Positions 26,000-31,793 of a DNA stretch of 31,793 bases are shown in pieces. Origin of the DNA: a virus; IMG/VR virus record IMGVR_UViG_3300029448_000216, positions 1 to 31,793 of that record; one strand, given 5' to 3'. The translations under genes and the position numbers were made by a program. Within the stretch, counting starts at the first letter, position 1. Each line of letters opens with the position of its first letter. The notes below the pieces were generated by a model that saw nothing but the letters and a program-made list of their open reading frames with translations, ran no database searches and was not told the DNA's origin.

Positions 26000-27961
26000 A
26001 TGAACGACTCGCGCAGAGAGATGTTGATTTCTTTCTACGAGAATCATTTTCATCTCATACCCTGTGGCTCTAGGTCAGACACGATACCAGATTACTTTAA
26101 ACGCAGACATCAATACGAAGAAGACAACATACTAATCAAGCGATGGTCGAAGACACCAAGAGTTAAGTGGTCCAACTACATAGAAACACAACCCACATTA
26201 AAAGAAATCAAAGAATGGTATCTACAATTTCCAGGTTGTAATTGGGCAGCTATCACAGGCATTAACTTTGTGGTGCTTGATGCAGATACGCAAGAGGCCT
26301 GTGAGTTTGTAGAGTCAGGGCAGATAACAAGAACCACCATGAAACAAAAGACACCTCGTGGTGGCTATCATTACTTCTATGCTATCAATCCAAACCTCAA
26401 AGTAAGAAACACCACAGGCAGACTAGACATCAGAGGAGAAGGTGGCTATGTCATGATATCGCCTTCCAACCAATACATGTTTGAAACTGTAGACAGCATG
26501 AACGTGGATGACATGGATGAACTCCCATGTCTCAGCAGTCAAGACATGAAAGTAATCTATGACTTCAACGATACAGGCAAGACTGGAACGCAAGACAATG
26601 GCTTGCTTACAATAGATGGTGTCGATACTGGTATGCGTAACGATACCTTGGCAAGGCTTGTTGGCAAATGGATTCTAGAAGGATGGGGCAGACGTGAAGT
26701 TATTATTAAAGCACTCGATTGGAATCAAACCAACAACCCACCCATGAGTGTGCAAGAAGTATTGCAGACAGTAAACAGCATATGTGCTGGACATCTAAGA
26801 AGAAACCCAGCAGAGAGCACAGGGATCTTAGAATGGAATACAAGTCAGTGGCAGATACAACTGACAGATGAACTCAAAGAGATCATGGACCAAGAAGATC
26901 CCATCGAACAGCAAAAGAATGAAGAGGGACCAGACAGAGACCCACTCGGACTCAAGACATTCGCAGATCCCTTTTGGGATGGCATGGACTCATCGCGCAT
27001 CGAACAGTTTTGGGGCGATGCATTTGTCTTTCAACAATCAAGAGTCTTGCTCTTGGGTAAACCCAAGATAGGTAAATCGCACTGGCTAGGTGCATTCGCA
27101 GCAGCGGCCACCACAGGCACGGAGTTTATGAATCAACAGTTTAGTAGGCCACTCAAGGTTATGTGGCTACAGGCAGAGATCATCCATGAGTTCTTGAAGA
27201 AAAGAATTGATATGTATTATCAGCCATTCGTCCATGACAAAGAGATGCTAGAGATAGGCAAGTCCAATCTGATTGCTTCAGGTAGGCTACGCAAGAACCT
27301 CATGCGAGACAAAGACATAGATGAGATAGCAACAAGTATTGATTATCACAAACCAGACATAGTAATGATTGACCCTATCATTAACTTCTTTGATGGTGAG
27401 GAGAACTCTAACTCAGAGATACATGCAATGCTATCAAGAGTAGACAGACTCATAGAACTCTTTGGCGTAGCTTTTATTATCGCTCATCACACTGGTAAAG
27501 AAAGAGCAGATGACTTGTCGTTCATGTCAGCGCGTGGTGGTAGTGCCTTTGCTGGTTGGATGGATTCAGGTGTCAAGCTGTCAGGCAAGAAACCCAACAT
27601 GAATGTTTTCTATGAAGCAAGGAATGCCAAAGAACCAGAACAACATCTCGCTTACTTTGATTACGACAGAGGATTCTTTAGGGTGGTTGATGCACAAGAT
27701 TCTCCAGACGAAGTAGAGATAGCAAGAGTTGTGGCATCAGCGATGGACAAGCACAAGTTTTATACAAGACAGGATCTCGAACTCCTTGCTCGCAAAGCTT
27801 TGAAAGAATCTGACCTAGCATCAGGAGAGAGAGCAGCAAGGTATGCAGTCTCACATGTACAAAAGTATCTAGGAGATAGAGTGAAGAATCACAATGTCCC
27901 AGGTAAGAATGCATGGTATTACTTAGCAGATAACGAGATGAAGAGGCCTTGGGATGAATAA
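26000..27961 (+). CDS. Primase-polymerase/helicase replication protein, 653 aa
   Basis: Start chosen at ATG 26000 with GGGGGA 7 nt upstream; a GTG at 25958, directly after the regulator stop, is in frame but weaker. The N-terminal bifunctional primase/polymerase domain has VVLDADT (Asp94, Asp96), TPRGGYHYFY (His124) and LDIRGEGGYVMISPS (142-156). The C-terminal RecA-like helicase/ATPase has LLGKPKIGKSHW (Walker A, 353-360), IVMIDPI (Walker B) and FIIAHHTGK (sensor-like), as in RepA-type helicases. The two activities would start and unwind at the phage origin. It replaces separate primase and DnaB-type genes. No phage DNA polymerase is seen in the window. Confidence 0.88.
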   Translation: MNDSRREMLISFYENHFHLIPCGSRSDTIPDYFKRRHQYEEDNILIKRWSKTPRVKWSNYIETQPTLKEIKEWYLQFPGCNWAAITGINFVVLDADTQEACEFVESGQITRTTMKQKTPRGGYHYFYAINPNLKVRNTTGRLDIRGEGGYVMISPSNQYMFETVDSMNVDDMDELPCLSSQDMKVIYDFNDTGKTGTQDNGLLTIDGVDTGMRNDTLARLVGKWILEGWGRREVIIKALDWNQTNNPPMSVQEVLQTVNSICAGHLRRNPAESTGILEWNTSQWQIQLTDELKEIMDQEDPIEQQKNEEGPDRDPLGLKTFADPFWDGMDSSRIEQFWGDAFVFQQSRVLLLGKPKIGKSHWLGAFAAAATTGTEFMNQQFSRPLKVMWLQAEIIHEFLKKRIDMYYQPFVHDKEMLEIGKSNLIASGRLRKNLMRDKDIDEIATSIDYHKPDIVMIDPIINFFDGEENSNSEIHAMLSRVDRLIELFGVAFIIAHHTGKERADDLSFMSARGGSAFAGWMDSGVKLSGKKPNMNVFYEARNAKEPEQHLAYFDYDRGFFRVVDAQDSPDEVEIARVVASAMDKHKFYTRQDLELLARKALKESDLASGERAARYAVSHVQKYLGDRVKNHNVPGKNAWYYLADNEMKRPWDE

Positions 27962-28799
27962 TCCTTACAAGATAGAAGGACCGGCTCTGATTAGTTTCAG
28001 TGGTGGTAGAACATCAGGCTTCATGTTGTGGAATATTATCCAAGCATATGGTGGCACACTGCCTGAAGATATATACGTTACCTTTGCTAACACAGGCAAG
28101 GAAGCCCCGGAGACACTCGACTTTGTGCATGAGATAGGACAGAAGTGGGGCGTGAAGATACATTGGCTAGAGTTGTACTTCGGTGAAGAGCGTCCAGTCT
28201 ATCGCACCAAAGAAGTCACCTATGAAACAGCAAGCAGAAATGGTGAACCCTTTGAAGCTTTGTTGGATCGCAGACAATACCTACCCAATCCTGTTACTAG
28301 ATTTTGTACAAGCGAACTAAAGATTAAAGTTATGTCAAGGTTCATGCGTAAGTTACGAGGTCATAAGAATTGGTACAACGTTATTGGCTTACGCTATGAC
28401 GAACCAAGAAGAGTGGCAAGTGCACTCAAGCAATATGAAGCATGGACAAATATAACCCCCATGAATGATGCCAAACATACAGTCAAAGATGTGACAGATT
28501 TTTGGGAGCAGCAAAACTTTGATTTGAAGCTAACAAACTTTGGCGGTAAAACTTTGGCTGGCAACTGTGACCTCTGCTTTCTTAAAGGCAAGGACACAAA
28601 GGTTAAGCTGCTGCAAGAAAGACCAGAGATGGCAGATTGGTGGATCAAACAAGAACAGAAGTTTGGCGATCATGCTGGTGCTACCTTTAGAAAGGATGGC
28701 CCCACTTACATTGACTTGCTAGATATTAGTAAACAACATTCAGAATACAAGGAGCAAGATCTGTTCGATGAACAGATGACATGTTTTTGCCATGATTAA
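27954..28799 (+). CDS. PAPS-reductase-like PP-loop enzyme, 281 aa
   Basis: Overlaps the primase-helicase gene by 8 nt. The PP-loop is ISFSGGRTSGFML (SGGRTS at 16-21). Family motifs include VTFANTGKEAPETLDFVHEI, NPVTRFCTSELKI, IGLRYDEPRR, and a Cys pair in GNCDLCFLKG. This is the adenine-nucleotide alpha hydrolase fold of PAPS/APS reductases and DndC. A Cys-x-x-Cys and two further Cys near the C-terminus (TCFCHD) could bind a metal or Fe-S cluster. Phage members are common beside DNA modification genes. Whether it reduces sulfate esters, thiolates nucleic acid or counters host defence cannot be told here; its neighbours (membrane protein, C5-methyltransferase) favour modification. Confidence 0.82.
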   Translation: MNNPYKIEGPALISFSGGRTSGFMLWNIIQAYGGTLPEDIYVTFANTGKEAPETLDFVHEIGQKWGVKIHWLELYFGEERPVYRTKEVTYETASRNGEPFEALLDRRQYLPNPVTRFCTSELKIKVMSRFMRKLRGHKNWYNVIGLRYDEPRRVASALKQYEAWTNITPMNDAKHTVKDVTDFWEQQNFDLKLTNFGGKTLAGNCDLCFLKGKDTKVKLLQERPEMADWWIKQEQKFGDHAGATFRKDGPTYIDLLDISKQHSEYKEQDLFDEQMTCFCHD

Positions 28800-29013
28800 C
28801 CTAGATAAGAAAGCTTTGAAGGAAGCCATGGTCGATACATTTACTGGCACGCTTATCAATCTACCTTTGGTTTGGTTGGTCTTGTTTCTGTGCTTGATGG
28901 TCACGCATAACAGCTTCTTGATATCGCTAGCTCAAGCAGGTGTCTTGACGATAGTAGCAATCATTAGAAAGTATTGCATCAGAGTTTGGTTTAAGAGCAG
29001 GGAGGAGACGTGA
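28792..29013 (+). CDS. Small membrane protein, DUF7220-like, 73 aa
   Basis: ATGA-type overlap (8 nt) with the PP-loop gene. Starts MINLDKKALKEAMVDTFTGT, then two hydrophobic segments (LINLPLVWLVLFLCLMV; FLISLAQAGVLTIVAIIRKY) and a basic tail. The pattern matches the small DUF7220 membrane proteins of phages. It sits between the PP-loop enzyme and the methyltransferase gene. Role unknown; membrane location is the only firm inference. Confidence 0.75.
   Translation: MINLDKKALKEAMVDTFTGTLINLPLVWLVLFLCLMVTHNSFLISLAQAGVLTIVAIIRKYCIRVWFKSREET
29001..29007 (+). promoter_or_regulatory. Strong ribosome site of the methyltransferase (GGAGGAG)
   Basis: GGAGGAG lies 2 nt before the GTG at 29010. The spacing from its first GGAG (29001-29004) is 5 nt. 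It fixes the GTG as start despite its overlap with the previous stop. Confidence 0.6.
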
Positions 29014-30785
29014 TAAAGATTTTAGATTTATGTTCCGGGATTGGTGGATTCAGTCTTGGATTGGAGGCAACAGGTGGCTTTGAGACGGTAGCGTTTTGTG
29101 AGTTTGATGAGTTCTGTTGTAAGGTATTAAACAAGCATTGGCCTGGTGTGCCAATCTACAATGACTTAAAGGAGTTAGGCAATGAACCAGAAAGAATTAT
29201 TCAAGAATTTGACCTCATCTGCGGAGGCATCCCCTGTCAACCGTTCAGCGTTGCAGGCAAGAAAAAAGGCAAGGAAGACGACAGACACCTCTGGCCGTAC
29301 ATGTATGAAATTGTTAAACACAAAAAACCCACTTGGGTCATTGTCGAAAACGTTGGTGGCTTCGTCAATGTGGCACTCGATGATGTGTGTCTTGACTTGG
29401 AAGCCCAAGGTTACGCCACGCAATCGTTTGTTATTCCAGCTTGCAGTGTCGAAGCTCCCCATCGAAGAGACAGAGTCTGGATCCTCGGAAAGAACTTGGA
29501 GAACCCCAGACGCGCATTGCGGCAGGGGGGGATCGAGCAAGGAGAGGATGCAAATGAAGTTAGACAAGGGGATGCCGATCAGCTTGAACGATCAAGTGGC
29601 ACACCCAGAATTGATGTGGCCCACGCCAGCATCGAGGGACTGGAAGGGAGGATCTCCGGGGACAATCAAGGAGGACAAGAACGGCAAGCCGTATCGAGAA
29701 GCAAAGAACAGCAAGACGAAGTGGGGGCTGACACTCGATGCAGCAGTGGTCTATCAACAAAAGAAGATGTGGCCCACACCAACGACAATGGACTCAAAGG
29801 AGGACTCATTGAAGCATGCAACGAAGATGCTACAGGGCAAGACGCACAGAGCATCAGGACAGCCAATACAAAAGACGCTGTCAGACAAAGTCATGATGGA
29901 GGAGATCCGCAAGAACCCAGAGCTGATGGAACTCTATCAAGATCATCAGATGCTAGAGAGACCTCATCTACCAGAGCAACAGGAGTTTGTGAAGTATCTA
30001 AGGAGTCAGACAACAATCAAGGAACTAGCAGAGAAGACGGACATCAAGAAGACAACAATCGAACATTGGTTCAGGAAGGACACGAAAGGATTCAGTCATC
30101 CGTCAATCGAGGATTGGCAGACAATCAAACCCCACTTGAAGAAACTCAAGTACGACAAGGAGATGATGACAGTTCAATCGATAGAGTGGCAGAATCAAAA
30201 GATGTTCCCAACGCCAGCGGCCAGAGACTACAAGGACACAGGGGAGAACACGGACTACGAGAAACTAGCAAAGAAAAGCAAACTGGCAGGAGCAGTCAAG
30301 AGCAAGATGTATCCCACGCCAAGGAGCTCGATAGGGATGTCGATGACAATGGACACAGTGGTCAAGGCAATGGACAGCAACGACAGGGGCTACAAGGGGA
30401 ACTTGGAGGAGCGAGTGGCAATCGAGCAGAAGATGTGGCCGACTCCGAACGCCTCGGACAACAGGGACAGGGGGAACATGAGCGACCCAGCAATACAGCG
30501 AAGGATCGCAAAGGGCAAGCAAGTGGGACTAACGATGGCAGTCAAGGACAAACCGGGCAAGGGCACACTGAACCCGGAGTGGGTGGAATGGATGATGGGC
30601 TATCCGCCAGGTTGGACGGACATTTCGGATTCGCAGTAGAGCCTGAGATCCCAAGGGTGGCAACAGGAATCCCGGAACGCGTCAATCGACTCAAAGCTTT
30701 GGGCAATTCTATCGTGCCTCAAGTGATTAGAAATATTGGACTGGCAATCTTGGAAGAGGAGCAGAGAGATGTGGTCAAAAAATAA
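29010..30785 (+). CDS. dcm-like: Cytosine-C5 DNA methyltransferase (Dcm-type), 591 aa, with disordered insert
   Basis: Motif I is LDLCSGIGGFSLGLE. Motif IV is GGIPCQPFSVAG with catalytic Cys76. Motif VI is VENVGG (Glu113). Motif VIII is PHRRDRVWIL (150-159). Motif X is RLKALGNSIVPQV near residue 560. It transfers a methyl group from SAM to cytosine C5. Between VIII and X, where the target-recognition part belongs, are about 380 residues of Gly, Gln, Glu, Asp, Ser, Arg and Asn with hardly any hydrophobics and with DVA-T/S-type repeats. That entire stretch is also the coding region of another protein in the +1 frame (29182-30639). The recognised DNA site is unknown. It likely protects phage DNA from host restriction. 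Confidence 0.9.
   Translation: MIKILDLCSGIGGFSLGLEATGGFETVAFCEFDEFCCKVLNKHWPGVPIYNDLKELGNEPERIIQEFDLICGGIPCQPFSVAGKKKGKEDDRHLWPYMYEIVKHKKPTWVIVENVGGFVNVALDDVCLDLEAQGYATQSFVIPACSVEAPHRRDRVWILGKNLENPRRALRQGGIEQGEDANEVRQGDADQLERSSGTPRIDVAHASIEGLEGRISGDNQGGQERQAVSRSKEQQDEVGADTRCSSGLSTKEDVAHTNDNGLKGGLIEACNEDATGQDAQSIRTANTKDAVRQSHDGGDPQEPRADGTLSRSSDARETSSTRATGVCEVSKESDNNQGTSREDGHQEDNNRTLVQEGHERIQSSVNRGLADNQTPLEETQVRQGDDDSSIDRVAESKDVPNASGQRLQGHRGEHGLRETSKEKQTGRSSQEQDVSHAKELDRDVDDNGHSGQGNGQQRQGLQGELGGASGNRAEDVADSERLGQQGQGEHERPSNTAKDRKGQASGTNDGSQGQTGQGHTEPGVGGMDDGLSARLDGHFGFAVEPEIPRVATGIPERVNRLKALGNSIVPQVIRNIGLAILEEEQRDVVKK
29168..29174 (+). promoter_or_regulatory. Internal Shine-Dalgarno for the nested gene (AAAGGAG)
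   Basis: AAAGGAG at 29168-29174 is 7 nt before the ATG at 29182, inside the methyltransferase gene (in its frame the bases read as Leu-Lys-Glu-Leu codons). Fit and spacing are near ideal, which supports independent translation of the nested frame. Confidence 0.72.
29182..30639 (+). CDS. Nested +1-frame protein: W-P-T-P repeat/HTH protein, 485 aa
   Basis: The frame is open for 485 codons wholly inside the methyltransferase gene. It starts MNQKELFKNLTSSAEASPVN. Residues 37-90 contain TSGRTCMKLL, SSMWHSMMCVLTWKPKVTP and NRLLFQLA, phrases I recall from phage proteins beside C5-methyltransferases. Six motif copies follow: WRTPDAHC (106), MWPTP (145, 196, 418), MFPTP (341), MYPTP (376), most followed by a charged helix and a Leu/Val end. 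Residues 266-300 look like a helix-turn-helix (TIKELAEKTDIKKTTIEHWF). The end is TLNPEWVEWMMGYPPGWTD. Function unknown; it may serve as a separate target-recognition or regulatory partner for the methyltransferase, or be an inhibitor. Evidence for coding is the SD, the motifs and the family memory. Confidence 0.78.
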   Translation: MNQKELFKNLTSSAEASPVNRSALQARKKARKTTDTSGRTCMKLLNTKNPLGSLSKTLVASSMWHSMMCVLTWKPKVTPRNRLLFQLAVSKLPIEETESGSSERTWRTPDAHCGRGGSSKERMQMKLDKGMPISLNDQVAHPELMWPTPASRDWKGGSPGTIKEDKNGKPYREAKNSKTKWGLTLDAAVVYQQKKMWPTPTTMDSKEDSLKHATKMLQGKTHRASGQPIQKTLSDKVMMEEIRKNPELMELYQDHQMLERPHLPEQQEFVKYLRSQTTIKELAEKTDIKKTTIEHWFRKDTKGFSHPSIEDWQTIKPHLKKLKYDKEMMTVQSIEWQNQKMFPTPAARDYKDTGENTDYEKLAKKSKLAGAVKSKMYPTPRSSIGMSMTMDTVVKAMDSNDRGYKGNLEERVAIEQKMWPTPNASDNRDRGNMSDPAIQRRIAKGKQVGLTMAVKDKPGKGTLNPEWVEWMMGYPPGWTDISDSQ

Positions 30786-31035: not shown

Positions 31036-31052
31036 TTAGTGGAATATTGCAG

Positions 31053-31622
31053 ATGAAAATTAAAAAGAAACTAACTAAAAAGCAAGAGAAGTTTGTCGAT
31101 CTCATGGTGTATCAGGATTACAATCAAACTAAGTGCGCTCATCTTGCAGGCTATGAGAATCCTGGTGTGGCCGCTACTAGGTTGTTATCTGATGAAGCTT
31201 TCTTTCATGTGCAAGAAAAGATTAAGCAGCTCAAGGCTGTGCAGAGGAAGAAGAACGAGATAACTTTTGAGGGCATAGCGAAGAAGCTCGCAGACATCAG
31301 AGACGTTGCGTTGGCAGATGGATCATATGGGCCAGCTGTGACAGCAGAGATTGCTAGAGCCAAGCTCGCAGGTTTGATGGTGGATAAGAAAGAGTTGAAG
31401 ATCCACAAGATAGATCACATGAACCGGGAACAGCTCGAGGCCAGGTTGCAAGAGCTAGTGCAAGAGAACCAAATCATTCTAGGCAAAGCAGAGGAAGTCA
31501 AAGAGGAGGTGCGGCCTAGTCAAGGTCTTCAAGATCTAAAGGCTGATGATTCTCAGATGGAGGATGTTGAGCCTGACGATTCTTTAGATGCGGAAGATCA
31601 GACTCAGAGAGCAGAAGGTTAA
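31053..31622 (+). CDS. terS: Terminase small subunit, 189 aa
   Basis: Start chosen at ATG 31053 with GGA about 9 nt upstream; an upstream in-frame TTG at 31047 is less likely. The N-terminus KKKLTKKQEKFVDLMVYQDY, then NQTKCAHLAGYENPGVAATR, is the HTH segment of Terminase_2-type small subunits, which bind the packaging site. A helical oligomerisation region (LADIRDVALADG to about residue 145) follows. The acidic tail (DDSQMEDVEPDDSLDAED) probably contacts the large subunit. It pairs with the large terminase, which must lie beyond the window. The last 107 nt overlap the opposing XseB-like gene. Confidence 0.85.
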   Translation: MKIKKKLTKKQEKFVDLMVYQDYNQTKCAHLAGYENPGVAATRLLSDEAFFHVQEKIKQLKAVQRKKNEITFEGIAKKLADIRDVALADGSYGPAVTAEIARAKLAGLMVDKKELKIHKIDHMNREQLEARLQELVQENQIILGKAEEVKEEVRPSQGLQDLKADDSQMEDVEPDDSLDAEDQTQRAEG

Positions 31623-31776
31623 CTCTGTCTTCTGCGTCCCGGAGCTTGCGCTTGCAGTAGCCCATGACTTTGACTCCCTTCTCCCATTCGGCCACCGATT
31701 CTTCTAAGCTTGATTGTTCTGAGTCTAGTTTCTTGACGATCCTATTTAGCTCTTGCATGCCTTTTTCAAAGCTCAT
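31516..31776 (-). CDS. xseB: Exonuclease VII small subunit homologue (XseB), 86 aa
   Basis: The protein begins MSFEKGMQELNRIVKKLDSE, then QSSLEESVAEWEKGVKVMGY and KRKLRDAEDRVNLL, a complete XseB helical-hairpin signature. Residues after about 57 are an extra hydrophilic tail that is antisense to the end of terS. ATG 31776 is favoured, with GGGA 6 nt upstream, but the frame stays open to the window edge, including a GTG at 31788, so the true start may be slightly upstream. XseB assembles with the large subunit XseA in ExoVII, which degrades single-stranded DNA. No xseA is seen here, so it may join the host XseA. Confidence 0.85.
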   Translation of the reverse strand: MSFEKGMQELNRIVKKLDSEQSSLEESVAEWEKGVKVMGYCKRKLRDAEDRVNLLLSESDLPHLKNRQAQHPPSENHQPLDLEDLD

Positions 31777-31793
31777 TCCCTGTCCCACTTGCA

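Follow-up and report, generated by a model that had tools for sequence, protein, structure and literature searches.

C5-cytosine DNA methyltransferases consist of a large domain with motifs I-VIII and X, and a small domain with the target-recognition domain (TRD) and motif IX (PMC3404938). In M.EcoHK31I, a two-polypeptide C5-methyltransferase (YGGCCR), motifs I-VIII and X are found in the alpha subunit and motif IX in the beta subunit, and the TRD is predicted to lie in the large subunit. The beta gene is located inside the alpha gene in a different reading frame. M.AquI is another C5-methyltransferase of two polypeptides, naturally split within its variable region into a part with motifs I-VIII and a part with motifs IX-X. 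The enzymes of the Bacillus phages SPR, phi3T, H2 and SPbeta carry several tandem TRDs (PMC8936443, PMC12707154). Here we describe two overlapping open reading frames (ORFs), M (alpha) and W (beta), in a 31.8-kb stretch of viral DNA (IMG/VR virus record IMGVR_UViG_3300029448_000216, positions 1 to 31,793; hereafter the window). We consider it highly probable (roughly 90%) that the same DNA, read in two frames, encodes one C5-cytosine DNA methyltransferase as two polypeptides: M, the catalytic part, and W, the small domain.

The motifs are divided between M and W as they are between the subunits of M.EcoHK31I, the nearest known precedent. M/W differs from that enzyme in where the recognition region lies (in M, the stretch corresponding to the predicted TRD lacks amino-acid constraint, and W holds the TRD-like part), in the array of exchangeable cassettes of which the longer, phage-borne W is built, in how far the dual coding extends and in how widely the family is spread among phages. 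The I-VIII/IX-X split of M.AquI is matched by gp75/gp74 of phage KittenMittens, by the loci L039, L040 and L134-L136, and by two-ORF relatives in actinophages; the window differs from it in that motif X is in M rather than in W and W is fully nested. Whereas the multispecific enzymes of Bacillus phages are single chains, the array here is in the nested gene, and a target of its own for each cassette is hypothetical. A methylase frame that is kept open over the frame of another gene is also a property of the ShiLan domain, a sporadic homing element with an HNH nuclease hidden in the third frame of phage methylases, which is predicted to loop out (PMC11855218). W, by contrast, is conserved as a component of the enzyme and has no significant HNH match. 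The record of the Paenibacillus larvae phage Redbud labels the nested ORF ‘g50 internal gene’; in the accessible records, neither this label nor PHROG 1008 comes with a function, a subunit role or a selection analysis. A literature search, with subscription journals mostly outside its coverage, found no published description of this nested phage methyltransferase family.

According to the ORF list of the window and its translations, M extends from 29010 to 30785 (GTG start, 591 aa) and W from 29182 to 30639 (ATG start, 485 aa), wholly within M and in the +1 frame relative to it. Both are on the plus strand, as are all features below unless noted. M matches PF00145 in Pfam (E = 1.7e-44) and phrog_363 in PHROG (E = 5.4e-68, residues 1-582), and is similar to M.HhaI over motifs I-VIII (E = 1.1e-17). 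Its sequence contains motif I (DLCSGIGGF, 29025-29051), the catalytic Pro-Cys-Gln of motif IV (29232-29240), the ENV of motif VI (29346-29354), the HRRDR of motif VIII (29460-29474) and, 3' of the W stop codon, motif X (RVNRLKALGNSIVPQ, 30678-30722), which is also covered by the PHROG match. Unlike a single-chain C5-cytosine DNA methyltransferase, M is without a target-recognition region and motif IX, both of which sit in the W frame. An earlier note, made from the letters of the window, had claimed a 485-codon ORF nested in the methyltransferase gene, an AAAGGAG 7 nt ahead of its ATG, and the retention of motifs I, IV, VI, VIII and X in the outer frame, and in these respects its account agrees with ours.

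Relatives were sampled as 40 IMG/VR relatives of W, 80 loci obtained via a shorter phage homologue, 80 obtained via a motif IX-X query and 80 from bacterial genomes of many phyla, to which named phages were added. In 231 loci, from phages as well as many bacterial phyla, W is nested at +1 and M contains motif X; W is +1 of M in all paired two-ORF loci except two, where it is +2. Its length ranges from ~160 to 620 aa across loci, and both frames are open regardless. We conclude that W is a genuine nested gene, because the synonymous diversity of M falls at the W start, the internal ribosome-binding site is conserved and the +1 nesting is kept in so many loci. Between close relatives, the synonymous divergence of M is 0.444 before the W start but only 0.172 within W, its nonsynonymous divergence being 0.052 in both parts, and the third-position entropy of M falls from ~0.69 to 0.33 on entering W (one-sided rank test, P about 1e-5). 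The ribosome-binding site of W (AAAGGAG, 29168-29174) is marked both by Shine-Dalgarno-like sequence, present ahead of 106 of 120 W starts, and by codon bias in M. Its AAGGAG core overlaps a Lys-Glu pair of M whose codon spelling is strongly retained, with AAG used in 80 of the 81 loci that have a lysine of M at this place, versus 102 of 198 lysine codons upstream.

The simultaneous openness of the two frames exceeds chance, since none of 3000 resamplings of the codons of either frame left the other one open. When synonymous W codons were resampled according to the phage's own codon usage, a mean of 38.9 stops appeared in the M frame over 29500-30636, where none is observed; resampling the catalytic codons of M produced 8.1 stops in the W frame. 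The third-position G+C content of W is 65%, versus 26% in other genes of the same phage.

Selection on each frame was estimated by an OLGenie-style count from 23 close relatives in three zones, A (29182-29499), B (29500-30549) and C (30550-30636). In zone A, where the N-terminus of W overlies the catalytic motifs of M, the dN/dS-type ratios were 0.32 (0.14-0.69) for W and 0.16 (0.08-0.29) for M; both proteins are therefore constrained over this first 320 nt, consistent with the divergence of M given above. In zone B the ratio for W was 0.15 and that for M 1.2-1.7 (1.71 given W-nonsynonymous change), so that amino-acid constraint across the cassettes, over the following ~1 kb, is confined to W. 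Zone C gave 0.17 for W and 0.81 for M (given W-nonsynonymous change). The view of the earlier note that both frames are selected thus applies to the first 320 nt but not to the region of about 29500-30550, and the frame-wise substitution test that it had named finds W constrained in every zone.

Across the W cassettes (29502-30550), the M frame encodes a linker that is stop-free, polar and otherwise unconstrained, as judged by stop counts, ratios and composition. Over the W region of 115 nested loci, no stop was found in 18,750 M-frame codons, and the third frame had 1,190. In contrast, where motif X is in the W frame (five loci), 1,100 M-frame codons include 63 stops (Fisher P about 1e-80). 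Openness of the M frame depends on the location of motif X. Stops in M's own frame are confined to loci in which motif X has shifted into the W frame or, in one locus (L022), out of M, and stops in the +1 frame, which had been put forward as evidence against dual coding, were found in none of the homologous M genes. A test based on T-ending codons (before AA, AG or GA) is conditional on an open M frame; it was set aside as main evidence and the comparison with loci that have motif X in the W frame was used. In the 115 loci the linker is 15% hydrophobic and 2% aromatic. That of the window has no aromatic residues, versus 9% expected if W is written in the phage's usual codons with stops avoided, although the deficit is far smaller when the codon usage of W itself is assumed (z -2.5). 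Most simply, translation of M continues across the W region for no purpose other than to arrive at motif X.

The relatives occur in three architectures that form a series. In the first, a single ORF contains motifs I-VIII, a region of the W family and motif X. Our script classed six loci as single chains, four of them in named actinophages, and Papez gp46, Phinally gp5 and Ramsey gp69 match phrog_363 and phrog_1008 in one ORF (phrog_1008 down to E = 2.3e-72). In all three proteins the W-type part lies 3' of motif VIII and is followed by a motif-IX-like segment and then motif X; PTP cassettes are present in Ramsey gp69 and Phinally gp5, and Papez gp46 has none. In the second architecture, the first of two overlapping ORFs has motifs I-VIII and the second has cassettes and motifs IX-X, as in KittenMittens gp75/gp74, Anthony gp80/gp79, Juno112 gp41/gp42 and the five numbered loci mentioned above. 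The second ORF of the three named pairs matches phrog_1008 (E = 9.8e-89 to 2.7e-63). Motif X is in the W ORF in seven loci, those five among them, and in the loci of this kind that were compared it comes after the motif-IX-like end, in the same frame and at a constant 141 nt. In the third architecture, to which the window and the large majority of loci belong, W is fully nested and motif X is in the first frame. This split follows the three-dimensional domains, because motifs I-VIII and X make up the large domain and the TRD and motif IX the small one (PMC3404938).

Several loci depart from this series. In L240 (1700-2683) and L270 (1652-2584), motifs I-VIII and a IX-like motif are in one ORF and motif X is in another frame, which is either a fourth arrangement or the result of assembly frameshifts. 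L253 and L255 have a W-like end at +2 (not +1) from M and motif X in a third ORF, and are possibly broken copies. A Paenibacillus bovis plasmid (L049) has two W-like ORFs in tandem, of which the second (2435-2899) is short and has PTP motifs and an end resembling motif IX. Five places on the Roseovarius sp. chromosome OX638333.1 (L274, L276-L279) have the same W match with equal length and identity, which suggests repeated prophage copies.

W itself matches phrog_1008 (E = 2e-44), a family labelled ‘DNA methyltransferase’. Judged by the profile matches of the actinophage proteins, the W family is the C-terminal half (target recognition and motif IX) of the same C5-methyltransferase in other phages. 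Moreover, the conserved W end, LNPxWVEWLMGYPxGWT, occupies exactly the place expected of motif IX. Its conservation and position and the in-frame homologues point to the segment at 30562-30618 (GTLNPEWVEWMMGYPPGWT) as the motif IX equivalent. With W-family proteins forming the C-terminal half elsewhere, the proposal of the earlier note that an enzyme lacking its target-recognition region is paired with W in a two-part system is very likely correct. The same note had mentioned similar proteins as free-standing in other phages, which we could not confirm: among the loci examined, every W without a partner is cut off by the edge of its contig on the 5' side.

The stretch of W that separates its N-terminal part from motif IX is made up of successive units that begin with [WFY]PTP or a close variant (WPTP cassettes). 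The cassettes have a median size of 40 aa, mostly number 1-8 per W, and fall into 49 types seen two or more times and a further 52 seen once. In the window they are D (WRTP, 29497-29613), I (WPTP, 29614-29766), G (WPTP, 29767-30201), B (FPTP, 30202-30306), E (YPTP, 30307-30432) and A (WPTP, 30433-30561). All six W/F/Y-P-T-P positions noted earlier were thus recovered, but the first, at 29497, reads W-R-T-P. The order D-I-G-B-E-A becomes D-I-B-E-A, D-W-B-E-A or L-D-G-B-E-A in near relatives, types A and B are also found in distant W proteins, and shared types recur in varying order; cassettes are exchanged between phages.

Known TRDs are ~40 aa in length. Tandem units of about this size between motifs VIII and IX are present in the M/W system as in a multispecific phage C5-methyltransferase. 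The cassettes are probably target-recognition units, given that the analogous Bacillus phage enzymes carry several tandem TRDs (PMC8936443, PMC12707154). The helix-turn-helix (HTH)-like segment reported for W is present (about 29980-30111), but it is an insert of one optional cassette, G. A Staphylococcus phage N4/N6-methyltransferase has a stretch with 50% identity to it, located between SPPY and the C-terminal DPFIGSGTT motif, in the expected target-recognition slot. In Staphylococcus phage Alsa_4 (L220, 556-2361), an N4/N6-methyltransferase with a cassette-G-like HTH in its presumed target-recognition slot is located beside a Mom-like modification gene.

We propose that M forms the large catalytic domain from motifs I-VIII and then X, with the ~350 codons in between serving as a polar, unconstrained linker that would loop out. 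W, made from its own internal ribosome-binding site, would supply the small domain, comprising its N-terminal part, the array of WPTP cassettes and motif IX. We predict that the two come together as a single methylase of phage DNA, which most likely serves to evade host restriction; cassette swaps between phages would alter the set of protected sequences. This proposal rests directly on the nesting, on selection, on the internal start site, on cassette exchange and on W being homologous to the C-terminal half of the single-chain enzymes; from these we infer assembly, activity, target recognition by cassettes and the anti-restriction role. A wider formulation describes a widespread phage methyltransferase class in which the nested out-of-frame gene is a swappable array of cassettes, each with a DNA target of its own, and specificities are gained and lost by exchange; each cassette must then stay open in two frames, because translation of the partner has to pass through it to reach motif X. 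We regard the chances of this formulation as evenly balanced.

Several observations weigh against a two-polypeptide enzyme. Production and assembly of both proteins are deduced from sequence. Pfam gives W no significant methyltransferase domain, NCBIfam does not recognize it either, and an hhalign comparison of W with E. coli Dcm returned nothing. The small-domain fold remains a prediction, because AlphaFold models of the W part are of low confidence: W alone (the L051 homologue, 71 sequences) reached a predicted local distance difference test (pLDDT) score of 58.7, and in a +1 read-through chain (L072) the W part stayed under 50. PHROG profiles, position and in-frame homologues are the grounds for linking W to motif IX, which Pfam does not detect in W. 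The pairs in the OLGenie-style count are mutually dependent and the bootstrap resampled columns only, and the zone C value for M also belongs on this side. Finally, Papez gp46 is without a PTP cassette; the cassettes are therefore dispensable for the basic enzyme and could serve another role.

Some of these observations would also be expected if W, though a genuine nested gene, encoded not an enzyme subunit but an independent protein that binds DNA or has a regulatory role. The HTH-like segment, the Pfam result and the lack of a confident small domain from AlphaFold all fit such a protein. However, members of the W family are joined on behind motif VIII in single-chain enzymes and include motifs IX-X in split ones, W was never found apart from M, and the part missing from M is exactly what W resembles, so we consider an independent protein unlikely. 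Programmed frameshifting could instead join both frames into a single chain, passing from M to the W frame (motifs I-VIII, then TRD and IX) and back again for motif X. W is nearly always at +1, and one +1 shift yields the canonical motif order. Nevertheless, W has its own conserved Shine-Dalgarno sequence and start, its N-terminal 105 codons are constrained yet would be absent from such a fusion, and M is stop-free across the whole W region, which a shift does not require; a frameshift thus appears slightly less probable still.

It is also conceivable that the overlapped region is a homing insertion with a hidden ORF in a methylase gene, W being a selfish element like those in ShiLan domains, which keep the methylase frame open, hold an out-of-frame ORF and are predicted to loop out (PMC11855218). 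We judge this very improbable, as neither Pfam nor PHROG finds an HNH domain in W at useful scores, the W start precedes any insertion and lies over the catalytic motifs, W is not sporadic but occurs in essentially all relatives, and it is homologous to the enzyme's own C-terminal half. The absence of amino-acid constraint on the M frame in zone B could also mean that one frame is an untranslated compositional accident of the other, but the complete lack of M-frame stops in nested loci, versus their frequency where motif X is elsewhere, the distorted codon usage of W and its constraint in all zones leave this explanation hardly any probability. A two-polypeptide C5-methyltransferase is our preferred reading.

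Two other features of the window lie near the locus. A PAPS-reductase-like gene (27954-28799) is located close 5' of the methyltransferase, and phage C72C1 has one near its M/W locus too; the gene and the locus are perhaps part of a DNA-modification neighbourhood. Downstream, a gene for the exonuclease VII small subunit (XseB; 31516-31788, minus strand; PF02609, 7.8e-15) is antisense and tail-to-tail to the terminase small-subunit ORF (31047-31622), with an overlap of ~100 nt.

Dual coding in the M/W locus is unusual in its length and in how widely it is conserved, and the two products resemble the two domains of one enzyme. Its relatives provide a natural control, in that the second frame closes when motif X changes frame. 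Cassette swaps under a two-frame constraint are a predicted route by which phage DNA modification diversifies. M and W may represent a natural split methyltransferase with separable targeting, and many genes annotated simply as phage cytosine methyltransferase probably conceal a second subunit.
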